Of a stretch of DNA of 24,337 bases, positions 2,101 through 18,998 are shown one piece after another; position 1 is the stretch's first letter; every line of letters starts with the position of its first letter. The notes under the pieces were generated by a model. It worked only from the letters and a program-made list of their open reading frames with translations, was not told the DNA's origin and did no database searches. Made by a program: the position numbers and the translations under genes. Source of the DNA: a virus; the IMG/VR virus record IMGVR_UViG_3300018041_000060, positions 1 through 24,337 of that record. One strand, written 5' to 3'.

Positions 2101-2481
2101 ATGACGGATAATACGGAATTAACAGATAAACAGAAGGCTCTTGTCGATACCATCGTATCAACAGGTTGTAGTATAGTTGAAGCAGCAGAAAAGGCTGGAT
2201 ATTCAACAAAAGTCAGTAGAGAATCAGCTAGGGTAAGTGCTTCTCGTACATTACGACTTCCAAAAGTACAGAGATACATGATGGAATGTGTGTCAAGAAC
2301 GATAGGTCTAGGTGCTGTCACCGCAAGTAATAAGTTAGTACAACTTAGTAACAATGCTAAATCAGAGTACGTACAACTAGAAGCAAGTAAGGATATACTA
2401 GATAGAGTTGGGTTACGTACACCAGATAGAGTTAATCACCAAGTAGTCGGAGATATAAAGGTTAGTATCGATCTTAGCTAG
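2101..2481 (+). CDS. terS: Terminase small subunit-like protein (TerS)
   Basis: A 126-aa protein that would bind phage DNA and load the large terminase for packaging. Residues about 8-32 (TDKQKALVDTIVSTGCS then IVEAAEKAGYS) match the opening of Terminase_2/XtmA-type small subunits: a conserved T-x-K-Q..F/V..Y/V strand-helix and a helix-turn-helix with the A-A-x-x-A-G-Y-S turn. RTLRLPKVQRYM resembles the following L-x-x-P-x-V-x-x-Y/L segment. The length is normal for the family. The ATG at 2101 follows a strong promoter by about 18 bases; the ribosome site is weak (GCGAG). TerL lies 1.7 kb downstream, separated by small basic genes, which is farther than usual. Confidence 0.75.
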   Translation: MTDNTELTDKQKALVDTIVSTGCSIVEAAEKAGYSTKVSRESARVSASRTLRLPKVQRYMMECVSRTIGLGAVTASNKLVQLSNNAKSEYVQLEASKDILDRVGLRTPDRVNHQVVGDIKVSIDLS

Positions 2482-2603: not shown

Positions 2604-2690
2604 ATGTCTTTAGACGATAAACCAAGAGAGGGTTTCTCTCACGCCTTGCAAGGCAATAAAAATTATGAAGAAAAAAAGTACAGTAAATAA
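2604..2690 (+). CDS. Possible 28-aa small protein
   Basis: An ATG at 2604, with AAGG four bases upstream, opens 28 codons: MSLDDKPREGFSHALQGNKN followed by YEEKKYSK. It overlaps the next gene by 26 bases. The mixed, charged composition is protein-like and the frame would fill the otherwise empty gap after TerS. The palindrome at 2643-2654 is inside it. There is no family match that I know, so this may be a chance frame. Confidence 0.3.
   Translation: MSLDDKPREGFSHALQGNKNYEEKKYSK
2626..2654 (+). repeat. Tandem hairpin and perfect 12-base palindrome
   Basis: GAGAG-GGTTT-CTCTC (2626-2640) is directly followed by the perfect palindrome GCCTTGCAAGGC (2643-2654), ending 10 bases before the start of the next gene at 2665. 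No T-run follows, so it is not an ordinary terminator. It could be an RNA-processing or stability element, or a dimeric protein-binding site, controlling the small basic gene series. Confidence 0.45.
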
Positions 2691-2844
2691 GGCTGGTAAC
2701 TATACTAAGCCTACTCTTAGAAAAAGACTGTTTCAGTCCATTAAGTCATCTGCTGTACAAGGTACTGCTGCTGGACAATGGTCTGCTAGAAAAGCACAGC
2801 TATTAGCCAAAAGATATAAAGCTGCTGGTGGTGGATATAGATAA
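2665..2844 (+). CDS. Small basic protein, 59 aa, Q-W-S-A-R-K-A motif
   Basis: A complete 59-codon gene starting MKKKSTVNKAGNYTKPTLRK and ending in AAGGGYR. It is strongly basic, with the recognisable motif GQWSARKAQLLAKRYKAAGG at residues 37-56. I recall this motif from short proteins in marine podoviruses and cyanophages, with no known function. Its TAA shares an A with the next ATG (ATAATG), so the two genes are coupled. It is the first of several small cationic proteins between TerS and TerL, which suggests a nucleic-acid or head-related role; that is inference. Confidence 0.75.
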   Translation: MKKKSTVNKAGNYTKPTLRKRLFQSIKSSAVQGTAAGQWSARKAQLLAKRYKAAGGGYR

Positions 2845-3089
2845 TGGCTTTAGCAAGGTCACAACAATCGCTAAAAGCATGGGGTAAACAGAAATGGCGT
2901 ACCAAATCTGGTAAAAAATCATCTGAAACAGGGGAAAGATATTTGCCAAGTGCTGCTATTAAAGCTTTATCTCCTAGTGAATACGCTAGAACTACTGCTG
3001 CTAAAAGAAAAACAAAGAAAAAAGGCAAACAAGTGTCTAAGCAGCCTAAAAGTATAGCAGCTAAAGTAAAAAAGTTTAGGAGTTTTTAA
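2844..3089 (+). CDS. Small basic protein, 81 aa
   Basis: A Lys/Arg-rich 81-residue protein. The N-terminal half has SLKAWGKQKWRTKSGKKSS, then ETGERYLPSAAIKALSPSEY, and the tail is a run of basic residues ending FRSF. The pattern W-x-x-Q-K-W-R-T-K-S-G-K-x-S..G-E-R-Y-L-P..A-I-K-x-L matches a domain of unknown function common in marine phage genomes; I am not sure of its family number. The ATG overlaps the upstream stop, and its own stop overlaps the next ATG (TAATG). No membrane segment, no catalytic motif. It may bind DNA through its charge. Confidence 0.8.
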   Translation: MALARSQQSLKAWGKQKWRTKSGKKSSETGERYLPSAAIKALSPSEYARTTAAKRKTKKKGKQVSKQPKSIAAKVKKFRSF

Positions 3090-3337
3090 TGGCAACTCCA
3101 GCATGGCAAAGAAAAGAAGGAAAGAATCCAAAAGGTGGATTAAATGCCAAAGGTAGAGCTAGTTATAATAGAGCTACTGGTGGCAATCTTAAAGCCCCTT
3201 CCAAGAAAAAGGGCAATAAGAGAAGAAAATCATTTTGTGCAAGAATGAAAGGTATGAAAAAGAAACTGACTTCTGCAAAAACAGCAAGAGATCCTGATTC
3301 TAGAATAAATAAATCACTTAGAGCGTGGAACTGTTAG
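3089..3337 (+). CDS. Small basic protein, 82 aa, F-C-A-R-M motif
   Basis: An 82-residue Lys/Arg-rich protein. It opens ATPAWQRKEGKNPKGGLNAK (residues 2-21), continues GRASYNRATGGNLKAP, then KKSF-type KSFCARMKGMKKKL (about 47-60) and ends RINKSLRAWNC. This TPAWQRKEGKNP..GGLNAKGR..FCARM..W-x-C layout is a widespread small phage family without known function. The two cysteines (C50 and C82, the last residue) are its most striking feature and could form a disulfide or hold metal in a dimer. Translationally coupled to the gene before it; the stop is followed by a 75-base gap. Confidence 0.8.
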   Translation: MATPAWQRKEGKNPKGGLNAKGRASYNRATGGNLKAPSKKKGNKRRKSFCARMKGMKKKLTSAKTARDPDSRINKSLRAWNC

Positions 3338-3345
3338 TAAGTGAA

Positions 3346-3374
3346 TTGAAATAATATTTTATTTCTAATATAGT
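3346..3374 (+). promoter_or_regulatory. Weak promoter candidate with an inverted repeat in the spacer
   Basis: TTGAAA (3346-3351), a 17-base spacer and TATAGT (3369-3374) resemble a sigma70 promoter. The inverted repeat GAAATAA-TATT-TTATTTC (3348-3365) covers the spacer and could be an operator. The DNA is almost pure A/T here, so chance is a serious alternative. It lies in one of the few gaps in this gene series. Confidence 0.25.
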
Positions 3375-3419
3375 TGTAGTTTACCTAAAAAAATTTTATA
3401 ACAACGAGGAATGAAAACT

Positions 3420-3599
3420 ATGACTATTGATGATTTAACGACTACTGTAAGAATACTTCAAGAAGAAGTAAAAGATATTAAAGAAATAAATAATGTATTA
3501 ATAAATAAGCTAGATAAAGCTTATGAAGATAGAATAGTATTGCGTAGTCAAGTTTTAAAGTCTAAAGTTAATAAAGAAAGTGAGGTCGAAAATGCCTAA
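3420..3599 (+). CDS. Small coiled-coil protein, 59 aa
   Basis: The protein MTIDDLTTTVRILQEEVKDI..., then KEINNVLINKLDKAYED, has hydrophobic residues at heptad spacing for most of its length, so a dimeric or trimeric coiled coil is likely. I chose the ATG at 3420 rather than 3411 because GAGGA (3406-3410) touches the first ATG but is nine bases before the second. The stop overlaps the start of the next gene (3592). It is acidic to neutral, unlike the basic proteins around it, and might be their partner or an assembly factor. No family is recognised. Confidence 0.6.
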   Translation: MTIDDLTTTVRILQEEVKDIKEINNVLINKLDKAYEDRIVLRSQVLKSKVNKESEVENA

Positions 3600-3711
3600 A
3601 GTTGGTAAAATGAAATTTCCATATACTGCTGCTGGAAAGAAAAAAGCAAAAGAAACAGCAAAGAAAAAAGGAATGAAAGTTGTCAAGCAAAGCAAAAAGA
3701 AAGGGTACTAG
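3592..3711 (+). CDS. Small lysine-rich protein, 39 aa
   Basis: A complete 39-codon gene: MPKVGKMKFPYTAAGKKKAK followed by ETAKKKGMKVV and KQSKKKGY. About two fifths of the residues are lysine. The pattern M-P-K-V-G-K-x-x-F-P/A-Y-T-x-x-G-K is one I recognise from many marine phages, always as a tiny protein of unknown function near packaging or structural genes. It overlaps the end of the coiled-coil gene by 8 bases and the start of the nuclease gene by 32 bases. GAGGTCGAAA lies just upstream as a ribosome site. It belongs to the cationic set between TerS and TerL. Confidence 0.75.
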   Translation: MPKVGKMKFPYTAAGKKKAKETAKKKGMKVVKQSKKKGY

Positions 3712-4270
3712 AGTAGAGAACGAAATAGTAAAACTCTTTCAAGCTGAAGGGTTTAATGCCAGGCGACAACCTTTATCTGGTGCTATTGCTGCGTTCCCTC
3801 ATGATGTTCAAGTATCTGACCTATTTCAGGGAACTAACATTGAAGTCAAAGCTAGAAAAAATGGCGAGGGCTTCGCCCAATTAGATAAATGGAAAGGATC
3901 TGCTGATCTTTTAGTATTAAAGAAAGACTTTTCTAACCCAATGGTATATCTTGATTGGGATTTATTTAAGGAGTTTTTGTATGAGTATAGACAAAACAGA
4001 CGACGTAACGAATCTGGAGAACAGGCAGCTGTTCAACATTTCTCTAGCAGAAAGACGGAAGCTAAGGCAGATCGTAAGAAAGGTACATCTAAAATTCCTT
4101 CCAGAAGCTTCAGTAACGGACAGGGAGTGCGACAAATTGATAGAAAGCCTTGGCCCAAAAGTCAGAGAAAAATTGCTAAGAGAAGCGATAGACAAGAATC
4201 TGGTATAAATGGCACAGCTAAGTTACAAACCAGATGGCAATACCTTAAAGAACTTTCTAAAGGGCAATGA
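3680..4270 (+). CDS. PD-(D/E)XK-type nuclease, Holliday-junction-resolvase-like, with an overprinted tail
   Basis: The conserved part is residues 1-97. It has G-T-R-V-E-N-E-I-V-K-L-F (catalytic-type Glu in the first helix), then RRQPLSGAIAAFPHDVQVSD (Asp in the first beta strand) and NIEVKARKNG (the E-x-K pair), ending LVLKKD...VYLDWDLFKEFL. This is the arrangement of small phage resolvases, usually about 100 aa, which cut branched DNA before packaging. The start is TTG at 3680: AAGGAA lies six bases upstream, a stop codon stands two codons before, and no ATG precedes the motifs. After residue ~100 the frame remains open for another 95 codons, through a whole separate 75-aa gene and 62 bases of TerL. 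That tail is basic and low in structure. It may be real overprinting or a lost stop codon. Confidence 0.7.
   Translation: MSSKAKRKGTRVENEIVKLFQAEGFNARRQPLSGAIAAFPHDVQVSDLFQGTNIEVKARKNGEGFAQLDKWKGSADLLVLKKDFSNPMVYLDWDLFKEFLYEYRQNRRRNESGEQAAVQHFSSRKTEAKADRKKGTSKIPSRSFSNGQGVRQIDRKPWPKSQRKIAKRSDRQESGINGTAKLQTRWQYLKELSKGQ
3981..4208 (+). CDS. Small conserved protein, 75 aa, upstream of TerL
   Basis: MSIDKTDDVTNLENRQLFNI opens a helical, charged protein ending KLIESLGPKVREKLLREAID. The motif D-R-E-x-D-K-L-I-E-S-L-G-P-x-x-x-E-K-x-x-x-x-A-x-D just before TerL is one I associate with uncultured marine phages. AAGGAG (3968-3973) lies seven bases before the ATG at 3981, which decides this start over an in-frame ATG at 3951. 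It lies wholly within the extended nuclease frame but in another frame, and its TAA directly precedes the TerL ATG. The function is unknown; it may couple to or assist the terminase. Confidence 0.7.
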   Translation: MSIDKTDDVTNLENRQLFNISLAERRKLRQIVRKVHLKFLPEASVTDRECDKLIESLGPKVREKLLREAIDKNLV

Positions 4271-5726
4271 ATTTTTTAGAGGTTTACGAGGGCCAGTAGG
4301 AAGTGGCAAGTCTGTTGCTTGCGCTATTGAAGTACTTAGACGAGCTCTCCAACAAGAGAAAAATGCTCAAGGAAAAAGAAAAAGTAGATGGGCAGTTATT
4401 CGGAATACTAATCCGCAACTTAAAACAACTACTATCAAAACATGGTTAGATTGGTTTCCTGAGAATGAATGGGGTGTATTTTCATGGTCAGTACCTTATA
4501 CGCATAGAATAAATGTAGGTGAACTAGAATTAGAGGTCATATTCTTAGCTTTAGATAGGCCTGAGGACGTTAAAAAGCTTTTATCATTAGAACTAACAGG
4601 TGTATGGGTAAACGAAGCCAGAGAGCTTCCTAAGAGCATTATTGACGCTTGTACTATGAGGGTAGGTAGATATCCTAGTATGCGTGATGGTGGTGCTTCT
4701 TGGTATGGAGTTATTGCAGATACAAACGCACCAGAAGAAGATCATTGGTGGCCTATTATGGCTGGTGATGTACCAGTACCAGATCATCTTTCAAGAGATG
4801 AAGCTTTAATGTTAGTGAAGCCTGAGAACTGGAATTTTTATACGCAGCCATCTGCTTTATTAGAAGATAAAAATAAAGATGGTACACTCAAAGGATATAA
4901 AAGAAATAGTAAATGTGAAAATCAAAACAATCTTACACAAGATTATTATAACAATATTATCAAAGGTAAGATGAAAGGGTGGATTGATGTTTATGTAATG
5001 AATAAACTAGGATCTTTAGAAGAAGGTAAACCAGTATATCCTAACTGGAATATGGAAATACATTTATCAAAAGAAGATCTAGAGCCGGCTCAAACAACAG
5101 TTTTTGTTGGTATTGACTTTGGACTAACACCAGCTGCAGTGTTCGGTCAAAAGCTACCTAATGGTAGATGGATAATACTTCAGGAGTTAGTTTGTTTTGA
5201 TATGGGTATTGCAAGATTTAGTGAATTATTAAAATATGAATTTGCAAAAAATTATAGAAACTTAGATATAGAAGTATTTGGTGATCCAGCTGGAGATTTT
5301 AGAGCTCAAACAGATGAAACTACACCATTTCAAATACTGCGACAAAATGGCATAATGGGTAAACCTACTCATAGTAATGATGTAGCTCTTAGAATAGAAG
5401 CTGTTGAAACTTCATTAGCTAGATTAGTAGAAGGATCTGCTGGTTTCTTAGTAGATCATAGATGTATTAATCTTAAAAAAGGATTTAATGGTGGTTATTT
5501 CTACAGAAGAATGCAGACTTCAGGTGATAGGTATGATGAAAAGCCAATGAAGAATAGATATTCTCATGTTCATGACGCATTACAATATTTATTATTAGGA
5601 GCTGGTGAAGGTAAACAATTAATATCTGGTAAAGCTAAAAATCCAACAGTAGTTAAGACTAGAGGTTGGAATATATTTGGTAATAAAAAAAGAAGAAGTG
5701 TATGGCAAAACAGAATGAATGGTTAG
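4209..5726 (+). CDS. terL: Terminase large subunit (ATPase and nuclease)
   Basis: The motor that pumps phage DNA into the procapsid through the portal and cuts it. Near the N-terminus is a Walker A motif GPVGSGKS (residues 28-35), and LTGVWVNEARELP (about 129-141) is the Walker B strand with the catalytic Glu136. The C-terminal RNase H-like nuclease begins with VFVGIDFGLTPA (Asp303), continues with EVFGDPAGDFR near residue 360, and ends with a SHVHDALQYLLLG block near residue 455, supplying the usual acidic metal ligands. At 505 aa it is of normal length. The start directly follows the stop of the 75-aa gene, and the end overlaps the next gene by 25 bases. Two complete domains and no frameshift are seen. 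Confidence 0.93.
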   Translation: MAQLSYKPDGNTLKNFLKGNEFFRGLRGPVGSGKSVACAIEVLRRALQQEKNAQGKRKSRWAVIRNTNPQLKTTTIKTWLDWFPENEWGVFSWSVPYTHRINVGELELEVIFLALDRPEDVKKLLSLELTGVWVNEARELPKSIIDACTMRVGRYPSMRDGGASWYGVIADTNAPEEDHWWPIMAGDVPVPDHLSRDEALMLVKPENWNFYTQPSALLEDKNKDGTLKGYKRNSKCENQNNLTQDYYNNIIKGKMKGWIDVYVMNKLGSLEEGKPVYPNWNMEIHLSKEDLEPAQTTVFVGIDFGLTPAAVFGQKLPNGRWIILQELVCFDMGIARFSELLKYEFAKNYRNLDIEVFGDPAGDFRAQTDETTPFQILRQNGIMGKPTHSNDVALRIEAVETSLARLVEGSAGFLVDHRCINLKKGFNGGYFYRRMQTSGDRYDEKPMKNRYSHVHDALQYLLLGAGEGKQLISGKAKNPTVVKTRGWNIFGNKKRRSVWQNRMNG

Positions 5727-6115
5727 TATATTTCTACGAAAATAGAGATTATCATAGGCATACTAAATTTTTTAAAAAAGGTTTTAAACATTGTGGAGTA
5801 ATGGGATATGATCCTGAAAAAAAAATATGGTTAATAGCAGAGTTTTTGTTTGGTAAATTAAATATAGAAATACTTAATGAACAAGAAGTAGATAAAATAT
5901 TTAGATTAATACAAATGAAGAATGGACACATACTTAAAGTTCCTGTGCAAGACACTATTCCTAGTTTTCCAACAATTATGGGATCTTGGATAAAAGAACA
6001 TAGTTGCGTTAGTTATGTACAAAGAATGATTGGTTGGTCTAGATTTTGGATATTTACACCTAATCAGCTATATTGTGCGTTGAAAAAGAATGGAATGTGT
6101 GAAATAGAACTATAA
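5702..6115 (+). CDS. Hypothetical protein, 137 aa, possible permuted papain-like enzyme
   Basis: The protein starts 25 bases inside the terL end. It has a pattern of conserved-looking residues: F-K-H30-C31-G-V-M-G-Y-D, then W-L-I-A-E47, and later EHSCVSYVQRMIGW (C102), followed by a FTPNQLYCAL block. A His, then an acidic residue, then a Cys at the start of a helix is the order expected of circularly permuted NlpC/P60-like cysteine hydrolases. I recall similar H-C...C-V-x-x-V-K-x-x-L-G...T-P-x-x-L-Y proteins after terL in marine phages. If active, it could be a peptidoglycan or assembly hydrolase; this is inference from motifs only. No signal peptide or membrane segment. Confidence 0.65.
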   Translation: MAKQNEWLVYFYENRDYHRHTKFFKKGFKHCGVMGYDPEKKIWLIAEFLFGKLNIEILNEQEVDKIFRLIQMKNGHILKVPVQDTIPSFPTIMGSWIKEHSCVSYVQRMIGWSRFWIFTPNQLYCALKKNGMCEIEL

Positions 6116-11084: not shown

Positions 11085-11100
11085 GGAGATTAACAACTAT

Positions 11101-11118
11101 GAGGGGGTTTACCCCCTC
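11101..11118 (+). terminator. Strong GC hairpin after the capsid/decoration genes
   Basis: GAGGGGG and CCCCCTC form a perfect 7-bp stem with loop TTTA, the most stable hairpin in the virion region. It is followed by TAGTCAAATA, not a T-run, so it may be a partial terminator, a 3' stability element for the abundant capsid message, or both. T7 has its main late terminator at the same place. An ATG at 11099 lies at its foot and would be hidden, which favours the next ATG at 11138. Confidence 0.55.
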
Positions 11119-11137
11119 TAGTCAAATAGGAGAAATT

Positions 11138-11908
11138 ATGGCAATAAGTGCAGCAGTAGGTGTAGGTAAAAAAATAGTTGGCAAAGCTATAAGTGCTGCC
11201 AAAAAGAAAAAAAAAGATTTAGAAAATAAAGGTAAAACAATAAAAAAAAGTGCTAAAGAAAATATTTTAAAAGATGCACAAAAAATAAAAGATCCAAGTG
11301 GAAAAAAAATAAGAGGTAATATTAAAGGTGTAGATGCAATTCCAAATGTTATGGCTGGAGCTGCTGGACAAACAGCAACAAAAGTAAGTGGTAAAGCTAT
11401 AAATGTTGCAAAAAATGTAAGTGATAAAACTGTTAAAACTGCTAAAAAAATAAAAGATGATCCAATAGGATCTGCAAAAAAAGCAACAGCAAATTTAATA
11501 GGTGATGATAAAGACGAAGTTATAGGTTTTGGTGTAGGAGCTTTAGCTGCTATGGGAACTGCTGCATTAACAGCTTCATTAACAAAATCTAATGCAAAAC
11601 CAGAACAAGAATTTACACAAGAAAGAAGATCTGATGGTAGATTTGCTACAATATATAAAGGTAAAAATGCAAATGTTGTTGCAAGTGCTAAACAATTATC
11701 AACAAAAGAAATTGATGATGTAAGAACACAATTAGCAGTATTAGATAGTATTATTGAATCTGATAATCCAAAATCAAGAAGTAAAGAATTTAAACAAACA
11801 GTAGGTTATTTAGCAACAAAATATAAAATATCTAATATTAGTGGAAAAAATTTATCTATTATAATTCCTAATGTAGAAGGTGGAGTACAATTAAGACAAA
11901 GAGCTTAA
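11138..11908 (+). CDS. Hypothetical Lys/Ala-rich protein, 256 aa, with one hydrophobic segment
   Basis: The ATG at 11138 is chosen because AGGAG (11128-11132) lies five bases before it; the in-frame ATG at 11099 is inside the foot of a hairpin. Residues 1-135 are extremely Lys/Ala-rich and helical (AAKKKKKDLENKGKTIKKS). Residues about 143-160 (VIGFGVGALAAMGTAALTAS) form a Gly/Ala-rich hydrophobic segment that could cross a membrane. The C-terminal 90 residues look like a folded domain (RSDGRFATIYKGKNANVV...). I do not know the family. Placement between capsid and tail tube genes, plus the basic and membrane-like parts, would suit an internal virion or ejected protein; that is inference. Confidence 0.7.
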   Translation: MAISAAVGVGKKIVGKAISAAKKKKKDLENKGKTIKKSAKENILKDAQKIKDPSGKKIRGNIKGVDAIPNVMAGAAGQTATKVSGKAINVAKNVSDKTVKTAKKIKDDPIGSAKKATANLIGDDKDEVIGFGVGALAAMGTAALTASLTKSNAKPEQEFTQERRSDGRFATIYKGKNANVVASAKQLSTKEIDDVRTQLAVLDSIIESDNPKSRSKEFKQTVGYLATKYKISNISGKNLSIIIPNVEGGVQLRQRA

Positions 11909-15211: not shown

Positions 15212-17455
15212 ATGGCATTAACAACAGGTAAAAGACAAGTAACAACTACTGCTTCTTCAGTAGCAAATAGAATGGGTGTAGTACCAGCTTATGCTGGTGA
15301 TCCAGTTTCTACTATTGCAAAAGTTGCAACAGAAAAATTAGATTTTTTTGCTAAACGTCAAGCGTCATTAGAAGAAGCAAAATATAAAGCTGATTTAGAA
15401 ATAAAAACATCTAAGTTTATTAATTTAAAAGCAAGAGAACATTTTAACGATCCAAAAACTTTTACAGCAACAACTGATAGTTATATTGAATCTTTAGTAA
15501 ATGAAGCTCCTACAAGATATAAGTCTTGGACTAAAAGCATGATTTCAGGAAAAGCTATTAGAAAAGGTGAAACAATATTTGCTAATAGAATTAAACAAGA
15601 TCATGATGATGCTATTAAATTACAAGAAGAAAGAGTAAGAACTCATAATGAAGAAACTTTAGAAGATTTATTTGATTTAGCTACTGTAAGTCAAGGTGAT
15701 CCTGAACTTAAAAAAGATTCTACTTTTACAAATAACATAGATGATTATCATAAAAATGTTTGGTTACCTAAAGTTTCAGAAATGTATAAAAGTCATTTAG
15801 AAGTATATAATGCAGCATATCCTGAAGATAGAAATAATATGCTTACACCACAAGAATTTTTAAGAACAATGCAAGTTTCTTTTGAACAGTTAAGAGTAAA
15901 TACAAAAGTTAAAAATATAATTGATAGTACAATGTTAGAAATAACTGAAATGGGTGGAAATTATCAAATAGGTAATGATAAAATTAAAGAATTAAATTTA
16001 AGAATTACAAAAATGTTAAATGAAGAATATATGAAAAATCCTCAAATAGATGTTTTAGATGGTAAAGCTACTTTAGTAAATACAACTAAAGAAGAAAGAA
16101 AACAAATAATTTCTAATGCTGAATCATTTATGAAAGGTCATTTAAATGTATATAACAATCAATTAGTTAAATATGAAAGTGAAAAAAAATTAGCAATAGC
16201 AGATCAATTAAATAATGATTTATATAATTTTGTAAATAATCCTGATGATTTTGGAATAATAACTGAATTACAATTAGAAAGAAAAATGATTGATTTAGAA
16301 TTAGATGATAATCAAAAATTAAATTATCGTAATTCTTATTTTGGTGGACAAATGATTAAAGGAAGTATTGATGAAAATTTACAAAATTTTGTTGGAGATA
16401 CTAGTGGTATGAAAATGGACACATTTTCAGGAAGATTATTTACGAGTTTAGATCAAAAAGGATATTTAGAAGCATTAGGTATTAATAATCAAGAAGATTT
16501 AAAAAAAATAATTATACAACAACATATTAAAAGAATATTTCCAAGTTTAAGAACAATCGAAACAGAAGATGGCCCAAAAAAAATAATAGTGCCAGGTGTT
16601 GATAGTATTGCTGATACTTGGTTAGGAACTGAATCTGTATTTATGCAAGATTCAGAAGGAAATACTGTTTTAGATAAAGATCAAAATGCATTAGCTACTG
16701 CTAAATTTAATAAAATGGTTGGTTATGCAAAAATGATGGGTGAGCCAATACCACAACTAACAAGTTTTTTTAATGATATAATGAATATTAATGTAAAAAA
16801 TGAAACTGATTTAATAAAGTTAGATAATGCTGCATATATGGTTAATTATTTTTTAGATACAGATGGTTTTGAATTTATGTTCAAAGGTATAGACAATGAT
16901 GTAAGAGCAAATATTTTAAAATTACAAGAATATCATAAATTACGTCATGCTGATTTTGACAGATTAACAAGAGTAGATGTAGCACAAAGTTTTTTTGAAA
17001 GTCTTAAACCTAAAGAATCTACAAGAACTGGACAAATTAAAATAGCTATGGATAATTTTATTAATTATGGAGAAGAAGGTGATGATAGTGCAGATCAAAT
17101 AAATTTAACAGAAATGGTAGATGAATATATAAAAAAATATCAAGATAATAGAGTAGCATTTAGTGTTCCTTTAAATTTAGCTCAACCAGTTTTTACTTCA
17201 TTAGTTTCTGGAGAAATGACACCAATATTAGGTGATTCAGTTGTTGATAGTATGACAGTAGATTCTAATAGAGTAAGAAAAGCTATAAGACCTTATTTAG
17301 ATATTTATTTAACTAATATGTTTCAAGATGAAAGTTATGTTACTAAACAATCAATTGAAAAAAATTTAAACAAAGCAATGAAATTTATAATGGAAGATTT
17401 TGCTAATGATGGATTTAATTGGAAAGTTTTTAGTGGGAGTAGTTATAATGAGTAA
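15212..17455 (+). CDS. Internal virion / ejection protein, T7 gp15-like
   Basis: A 747-aa, almost entirely helical, highly charged protein with no membrane segment. The N-terminus (YAGDPVSTIAKVATEKLDFF and the following KRQASLEEAKYKAD) and the second gene position after tube B fit T7 gp15, which forms the periplasmic tunnel with gp16. T7 gp15 is 747 residues by my recollection, the same size, though sequence similarity is not visible by eye. Strong A-rich codon bias. The ATG lies two bases after the previous stop, and the end overlaps the next start by 8 bases. Confidence 0.75.
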   Translation: MALTTGKRQVTTTASSVANRMGVVPAYAGDPVSTIAKVATEKLDFFAKRQASLEEAKYKADLEIKTSKFINLKAREHFNDPKTFTATTDSYIESLVNEAPTRYKSWTKSMISGKAIRKGETIFANRIKQDHDDAIKLQEERVRTHNEETLEDLFDLATVSQGDPELKKDSTFTNNIDDYHKNVWLPKVSEMYKSHLEVYNAAYPEDRNNMLTPQEFLRTMQVSFEQLRVNTKVKNIIDSTMLEITEMGGNYQIGNDKIKELNLRITKMLNEEYMKNPQIDVLDGKATLVNTTKEERKQIISNAESFMKGHLNVYNNQLVKYESEKKLAIADQLNNDLYNFVNNPDDFGIITELQLERKMIDLELDDNQKLNYRNSYFGGQMIKGSIDENLQNFVGDTSGMKMDTFSGRLFTSLDQKGYLEALGINNQEDLKKIIIQQHIKRIFPSLRTIETEDGPKKIIVPGVDSIADTWLGTESVFMQDSEGNTVLDKDQNALATAKFNKMVGYAKMMGEPIPQLTSFFNDIMNINVKNETDLIKLDNAAYMVNYFLDTDGFEFMFKGIDNDVRANILKLQEYHKLRHADFDRLTRVDVAQSFFESLKPKESTRTGQIKIAMDNFINYGEEGDDSADQINLTEMVDEYIKKYQDNRVAFSVPLNLAQPVFTSLVSGEMTPILGDSVVDSMTVDSNRVRKAIRPYLDIYLTNMFQDESYVTKQSIEKNLNKAMKFIMEDFANDGFNWKVFSGSSYNE

Positions 17456-18998
17456 TGTACAACGATATGATTTGTTTGATCATTATGGTAAATTAGGTTT
17501 TACTAAAAAACAAATACAAGATGATATGATTTTTACTTTGCAAGAAAGAATGGCAAATATGAGTAGTTTGCAAAAAGAAGAATATGGTATTAATGATGAT
17601 TTTTATAACAGAACAAACTTATTTGATATGTATGACGCTGGAAGAATAATAGCTACATATGATGATAAGTCTACTGAGCCATATCCTACCTATAATTTAA
17701 AAGTTGATTTTGATGGTGATGGTGTTTTTTCTGTTTTACATAATCCTGATAATACAGCAGTTAATTTTAGACCTGTTATGGGTGGACAATTTGCAGATAA
17801 AAGATTTACAAGAGACGCTTTTTTTAGTGAATATTTTAAAAATCAATATGAAACTATGGTATCTGCTATGCCAAGTGATGTTAGAGATTTTTTAACTGTT
17901 AATCCTTGGGCTAATGATTTTCTTCAATCAACTATAACTGGATATTCTAGATTTGCAGAATTTGATAGAGAAGTTACAGAAAAATTTGCAAACTTTATTG
18001 ATGATTTTTCTAATCAAGAAAATAGAGTTGGGCCTCCTAGTGTATTTAAAAGAATAGTAAGAAGTGTTTTTGAAAACACAATAGGTTTTGACGCTAATAA
18101 AGATAGATTAGAATATGAAGTACAACAAGCACAAAAAGAATATATTGAACAAACTAAATTAAATAAAGTAAATGAAAATAATTTTATAAGCAATCCTTAT
18201 TTAGCTCATATATATAAAAATGAAGGAGCGTTTAGTGAAACAGTTTATGATCCTATGAATAAAAATAGATCTTATGAACATTTATCAAAAATGGAAAATG
18301 GAAAATATGTTAATGATCCAACAATAGGATTTGGATTATCTTTAAATGATAAATGGGTAACTAATCAATTAATTAATAAAGGATATAATATTGATTTATT
18401 ATTAAAAGGTGAACAACAATTAAAAAGATCAGATGGTATGGACATATCAGTTGATTACATGAATATTAAAAAAGATGATTTAGTAAATTTTTTTGGTGAA
18501 GATTTAAATAAACCAGAAAATAGTTATTTAATGTTAGCTTTATTAGATTTAAGTTATTTAAGTGGTTTTAATGTAGATGGAAGTTTTATTGGAGATAGAA
18601 TGAAATCAGCAGTAAAAGGTGCTTTAACTGCTAAAACAACAGAAGAAAAATTAGGATATTTAGGAAATTTTGCTTCTTATATTCCTAGTGATTTATTAGA
18701 TAAACCATCTGGTGAAATGTTAGATTTTTTAGACCCAGATGTACAAGATGTAAAACCATATATTGGATATGATAATGAAAATCAAACTTATAAAATGTAT
18801 CCTGAATCTACAATAGCACAAGAATTATTTAATGATAGTGCTAGATATATGCAATACAGAGGAAGATTTTTAAATAACTTTGCATTGTTAGAAAAATGGG
18901 CGCAAGGTAGTTCTACTGCAGCACCTTTTCCAAAATATGATGATCAATTACCTTCTTTAAAAGAAGATGACAATATGCCAGTTATAGAAATAAAATAA
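17448..18998 (+). CDS. Ejection-associated protein with a GH24-type lysozyme domain
   Basis: The start is ATG 17448, chosen because GGGAG lies eight bases before it and it overlaps the gp15-like stop; an in-frame ATG at 17400 lacks such support. The 516-aa protein has a charged helical N-terminal part (1-245), then a domain opening with HIYKNEGAFSETVYDP. Glu259, Asp268 (nine residues on, as in T4 lysozyme) and the TIGFG block (Thr292) match the GH24 muramidase triad, with about 18 extra residues between Asp and Thr. The domain runs on to about residue 430. It should cut peptidoglycan during DNA entry, the task of the transglycosylase domain of T7 gp16. Coupled to both neighbours. Confidence 0.75.
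   Translation: MSNVQRYDLFDHYGKLGFTKKQIQDDMIFTLQERMANMSSLQKEEYGINDDFYNRTNLFDMYDAGRIIATYDDKSTEPYPTYNLKVDFDGDGVFSVLHNPDNTAVNFRPVMGGQFADKRFTRDAFFSEYFKNQYETMVSAMPSDVRDFLTVNPWANDFLQSTITGYSRFAEFDREVTEKFANFIDDFSNQENRVGPPSVFKRIVRSVFENTIGFDANKDRLEYEVQQAQKEYIEQTKLNKVNENNFISNPYLAHIYKNEGAFSETVYDPMNKNRSYEHLSKMENGKYVNDPTIGFGLSLNDKWVTNQLINKGYNIDLLLKGEQQLKRSDGMDISVDYMNIKKDDLVNFFGEDLNKPENSYLMLALLDLSYLSGFNVDGSFIGDRMKSAVKGALTAKTTEEKLGYLGNFASYIPSDLLDKPSGEMLDFLDPDVQDVKPYIGYDNENQTYKMYPESTIAQELFNDSARYMQYRGRFLNNFALLEKWAQGSSTAAPFPKYDDQLPSLKEDDNMPVIEIK

Follow-up and report, generated by a model that had tools for sequence, protein, structure and literature searches.

The head of phage T4 contains internal proteins, among them one that acts against host restriction. 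The T4 prohead protease cuts after Glu, and the cleavage rule of T4 gp21 is I/L-x-E. In the podovirus T7, the genes of two small proteins, gp6.7 and gp7.3, lie in the late head region, and both proteins are packaged and ejected. The T4 internal proteins are basic, number about 300 copies, can bind DNA when the salt is low and are in many cases ejected, and the prohead protease trims propeptides off them (PMC9026906).

Here, we describe a group of small, very basic proteins of a marine bacterial virus, encoded in a record of 24,337 bases (IMGVR_UViG_3300018041_000060), the whole of which is referred to as the window. The phage is a podovirus whose portal is of the Head-tail_con type and which also encodes a T7-type capsid assembly protein. 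Among isolates, Pelagibacter phage Hodr (EXVC031P) is the nearest, with an identity of 65% for the large terminase subunit (TerL) and 58% for the portal. In the GenBank record of Hodr (L009, OQ414635), the locus tags bear the name of another phage, EXVC032PBaldr. The protein families concerned have entries in databases, but as domains of unknown function. New here are the proposal, from published proteomes, of a function class for one of them, DUF6321, namely that of virion protein, and the finding that two others, A and B, form an obligate pair.

As in the window, A, B and a DUF6321 protein (C) are encoded upstream of TerL in Hodr. However, in Hodr A and B are fused into one protein of 132 aa, the DUF6321 protein lacks both of the cysteines discussed below, and the gene order differs. 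In the T4-like cyanophages (S-CREM2 gp137, Syn9 gp114 and P-HM2 gp112), DUF6321 is recognised above the Pfam cut-off and is found, as in the window, between the small terminase subunit (TerS) and TerL, but there it ends a long multi-module protein, whereas in the window it is a free protein of 82 aa beside A and B. The T4 proteins IPI, IPII and IPIII are small, basic and packaged in the head; the likeness of the window proteins to them lies in size and charge and, for relatives of C, in association with the virion, DNA binding and ejection being known for T4 only. In contrast to IPI-III, the podovirus proteins are conserved far more strongly, and no N-terminal capsid targeting sequence or propeptide was seen in the podovirus forms. 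The T7 proteins gp6.7 and gp7.3 are likened to this cassette by description and not by homology, as they share its small size and its late head-region coding.

Genes between TerS and TerL

All the genes considered in this interval are on the plus strand. TerS (2101..2481) was recognised by PF03592 (E 6e-10) and phrog_51 (E 3e-12), and TerL (4209..5726) by phrog_2 (E 2e-19). Between them, A (2665..2844, 59 aa) and B (2844..3089, 81 aa) gave full-length matches to two PHROG profiles with no assigned function, phrog_17747 (E 2e-28, 99.5 bits) and phrog_14910 (E 2e-33, 115.8 bits), respectively. C (3089..3337, 82 aa) belongs to DUF6321 (PF19846, E 6e-25), and E (3592..3711, 39 aa) belongs to a family with the motif MPKVGK..FPYT..GK, whose relatives were recognised by a local HMM. 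The A-B and B-C junctions are one-base overlaps within TAATG, so that A, B and C are probably translationally coupled; the reading frames of D and E overlap as well.

A preliminary description of this DNA, made from the sequence alone, had reported four closely spaced Lys/Arg-rich proteins of 59, 81, 82 and 39 aa, and all of them were recovered with these lengths. The non-basic coiled-coil peptide that it placed at 3420-3599 is also present, but its start is at 3411, position 3420 being an internal ATG; this protein, D (3411..3599, 62 aa), is coiled-coil-like. Two further reading frames of the interval had been left uncounted. F (3680..4270), which overlaps E, has a TTG start and encodes a Holliday junction resolvase that resembles Hjc/RusA (phrog_244, E 2e-11; phrog_23036, E 2e-6). 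G (3951..4208), an ORF of 84-85 aa directly before TerL, has a weak match to PF10784, below the cut-off, and a possible counterpart of 64 aa at the same place in Hodr.

The net charges of A, B, C and E are +15, +21, +22 and +14, and their pI values, 11.6, 11.3, 11.6 and 10.5, are the four highest among the window gene products tabulated. Lys and Arg together account for 25-38% of their residues. For D, the corresponding charge and pI are -1 and 5.4. Elsewhere in the window, the stretch that separates the major capsid gene from tail tube A encodes a very basic protein of 269 aa (11099-11908; pI 10.1, net charge +25), for which a comparison with Pfam gave no match.

The distinct motifs that the preliminary description had named in A, B, C and E proved to be conserved in alignments: these are, besides that of E, G-x-W-S-A-R-K-A-Q...Y-K-x-x-G-G-G-Y in A, W..QKWRTKSGK..TGERYLP..AIK.L in B and F-C-A-R-M ... 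W-N-C in C. Eighteen columns were invariant among 30 diverse sequences of A, and 21 of the 80 positions among 31 diverse sequences of B. Between related phages, dN for A, B and C was about 0.09-0.25 and dS about 0.8-2, the latter being near saturation; judged by this sequence comparison, the three genes are under purifying selection. The A family was found in 18 phage records, and B gave at least 599 matching stretches in viral contigs. For E, a BLAST search against phages returned no match, probably because of the short length and the composition of the protein, and the local HMM later located relatives both in viral contigs and in the phages HTVC035P and Lederberg. In one contig (L043, 940-1491), an ORF of 183 aa ends in the E domain, and its N-terminal part resembles a window ORF located just after TerL (5702-6115). 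The matches of D numbered six, all of them near-identical relatives, among which the window itself and a second copy of it are counted, and this places D outside the conserved set. A, B, C and E are genuine, conserved, widespread and very basic proteins.

The association of these genes was followed in 80 viral contigs, for which B was the only bait and which, having been picked by similarity to B, are not independent. In 76 of them, B was preceded by A on the same strand, and in the remaining four, fewer than 600 bases are left upstream of B before the contig ends; in other words, A was present in all 76 contigs in which it could be sought. C was found in 58 of the 80, on the same strand every time. 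Among the isolates looked at, A and B occurred together in 8/8. A and B constitute an obligate pair. The proposal that the proteins of this interval form a set was thus borne out for A with B, often together with C, but not for D. Profile comparison detected no homology among A, B and C, and a resemblance between B and C noted by eye was dropped. A weak resemblance of A to the PSAYANAW module, which is found beside C or inside the cyanophage-type polyprotein, is not claimed (hmmsearch E about 1e-3; hhalign 70%, 13 columns). Scanning of genome contigs with a single protein yielded 37 loci, mostly in MAG contigs, which are probably phage sequence; in the plasmids scanned, none was found.

DUF6321 proteins in purified virus particles

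C matched PF19846 with 88 bits, against a gathering cut-off of 28.5, over positions 1-72 of the 72 of the profile. Among 50,697 phage records, 544 contained the domain, and most of these belong to cyanophages. Two cysteines of C, one in the FCAR motif and one in the final WxC, were both present in 119 C sequences, both absent from six and never found singly; in these related, hence not independent, sequences, such a co-occurrence suggests a disulfide or a shared metal. The long C proteins of the cyanomyovirus type (L113, L120, L128, L165 and others) contain recurring short modules whose order varies, namely PSAYASG..VKCR, RYCPKC..., WVQLGGKYAGKPC and a probable beta domain before DUF6321.

In the virion proteome of S-CREM2, gp137 was detected by four unique peptides with a coverage of 4.1%, so low that the peptides may stem from another part of the protein than its C domain, and its basic neighbour gp136 was detected by eight unique peptides (PMC10665884). 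These two are the genes located between TerS and TerL in this phage, and the C-terminus of gp137 is a DUF6321 domain (40.8 bits against the cut-off of 28.5). CsCl-purified particles can contain contaminants. In S-SCSM1, gene 29 (517 aa), which is situated between the genes of TerS (gene 25) and TerL (gene 32), carries the C domain at its end and bears the label of a virion protein. We counted 48 such labels in the record of this phage; mass spectrometry reported 45 proteins, and the three non-structural proteins named in the same paper all bear the label (PMC9602691), which indicates that the label follows detection closely but not exactly. The C-bearing protein is probably present in S-SCSM1 virions. 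In S-SZBM1, the C protein (gene 192) was absent among the 30 virion proteins listed, which include genes 190 and 195 of the same TerS-TerL interval (PMC9146016).

Two other genes of the S-SZBM1 interval (L172) were noted. Gene 194 (15256-17376) was first taken as the DUF6321 protein of this phage, but it has no DUF6321, which is found in gene 192. It encodes a long cationic protein containing TYREFIAEG, which we take to be close to the capsid targeting sequence of the T4 internal proteins. Gene 195 (17381-17641, 87 aa), located right after TerS, is an abundant virion protein, with the third highest emPAI in the virion (PMC9146016).

At least one relative bearing the C domain is virion-associated. 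The evidence is direct for relatives of this kind, and it is by inference that it is extended to A, B and E. The preliminary description had suggested that the proteins are packaged with the genome; this agrees with S-CREM2 gp137 and with the label of S-SCSM1 gene 29, but not with the C protein of S-SZBM1. Since a protein with a C-type domain was found in purified cyanophage particles, packaging in the virus head is the most likely fate of the cassette proteins, and C, at least, is probably a component of the particle. With moderate confidence, we therefore regard A, B, C and E as late-made, folded, basic virion proteins, probably located inside the head.

A doubtful, though plausible, alternative is that these proteins are made late but act outside the virion as nucleic-acid binders, for example as RNA- or ribosome-binding regulators of late expression, and that they lie in the late operon by chance. 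Their high charge and the folded domains predicted for B and C would suit such a role. The same is true of their arrangement in HTVC035P and Lederberg, where C, E, A and B end the late operon after the peptidase gene and face the convergent replication genes, and of the virion list of S-SZBM1, from which C is missing, virion detection being limited to relatives of C. On the other hand, a C-bearing relative is found in S-CREM2 virions and probably in those of S-SCSM1, which argues against this alternative.

Genomic positions and predicted folds

C is located between TerS and TerL in P-HM2, Syn9, S-CREM2, S-SCSM1 and S-SZBM1, and it follows TerS in S-RIM2, in which TerL lies beyond the stretch read. 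In MEP402, the order C-A-B is found immediately upstream of TerL. Together with the TerS-TerL position in the window and probably in Hodr, and with the presence of the resolvase F in the same interval, such locations could point to packaging accessories, which would load or regulate TerS/TerL or guide the processing of concatemers with F. We consider this unlikely, because the families also occur away from terminase genes: none is annotated beside them in HTVC035P, Lederberg, HTVC104P and HTVC204P, in the last of which C ends the late operon after the peptidase gene, facing the replication genes. Moreover, among the 10 B contigs with a recognised TerL, the latter was close by in only about half, these distances being incomplete, as many TerLs escape recognition by phrog_2 on its own and many of the contigs are fragmentary.

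In P-SCSP1a, C separates the major capsid gene from that of the tail tube, and in Eistla, it is found between the scaffold and the capsid. In CRP-1 and HMO-2011, A and B lie upstream of the lysozyme, terminase and portal genes. The SU10-type head-tail adaptor accounted for 8 of the 117 non-redundant neighbours of B in metagenomic contigs, and the other recognised neighbours included families of terminases, capsid proteins, connectors, tail fibres and lysozymes and, in some cases, integrases and oxygenases; this tally is descriptive and does not measure enrichment. The varied positions in other phages indicate that the constant element is the late virion/lysis module and not the terminase. Assistance in packaging, which the preliminary description had put forward together with a protamine-like condensation of DNA, is thus weakened.

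AlphaFold2 models were computed from alignments of 31 sequences for B and 28 for C. Both proteins were predicted to be compact and mostly helical, with a mean pLDDT of 88.1 and a pTM of 0.69 for B, and of 87.7 and 0.68 for C. Sequence searches of the PDB gave no credible match, and in fold searches against solved structures, in which known DNA-binding folds such as HU, histone-like and HTH were of interest, the best Z value for C was 2.0 and B had no match. A phage protamine, in which unstructured polycations would be the main agent condensing the packaged DNA, is improbable in the light of these models. The pI values of 10.5-11.6 and the content of Lys and Arg are in keeping with it, and E alone, very short and Lys-rich, could fit. 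However, protamines are short, Arg-rich and unstructured, whereas B and C are confidently predicted to be folded, have specific invariant residues, more than a quarter of all positions in B, and contain no low-complexity Arg tracts, and the cysteines of C covary as a pair. That the proteins decorate the exterior of the shell as cement is very improbable: in P-SCSP1a and Eistla, C is a direct neighbour of the major capsid gene, but in the cryo-EM structure of P-SCSP1u the icosahedral shell consists of the major capsid protein alone (PMC10575957), a comparison which goes by isolate series and assumes that P-SCSP1u has C.

A possible role inside the head

As virion proteins of the kind favoured here, A, B, C and E would be expressed late within the virion-morphogenesis module, in which their genes are located, and would enter the procapsid with the scaffold or through an affinity for DNA, to which their charge alone points. 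They would then lie close to the packaged genome within the head and may leave the particle together with it, their targets in the host being nucleic acid or defence, in a manner analogous to T4 IPI-III or T7 gp6.7/7.3. In podoviruses such as the window phage, they are supplied by separate genes, with A, B and C probably coupled in translation. In the T4-like cyanophages, the C domain forms the tail of a multi-module protein, from which it is perhaps freed by the prohead protease. Among 26 fused C proteins, 24 had a Glu in the five residues that precede the domain, where 31% would be expected from the rest of the same proteins, and among 70 separate ones, a single protein had it; these sequences are related, and the fit to the I/L-x-E rule of T4 gp21 is only partial. 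As the T4 protease cuts after Glu, this residue suggests that the fused proteins could be cut into free modules, similar to those that have genes of their own in the window.

On a wider scale, we tentatively propose, as a possibility, a hitherto unrecognised, ocean-wide class of small, folded, basic, head-internal proteins built from common modules and shared by unrelated tailed phages of SAR11, SAR116, roseobacter, methylotroph and cyanobacterial hosts. In podoviruses, each of these proteins would have its own gene, coupled to the others, and in T4-like phages, the prohead protease would cut them from a single polyprotein. They would be ejected with the DNA to protect it or to act on the host.

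The joining of virion proteomes to DUF6321 provides a first function class for this family and a small set of proteins that can be tested in cultured SAR11 phages. If these proteins are internal and ejected, they would be a cargo that very abundant ocean phages have conserved and deliver, much as T4 does with its internal proteins.
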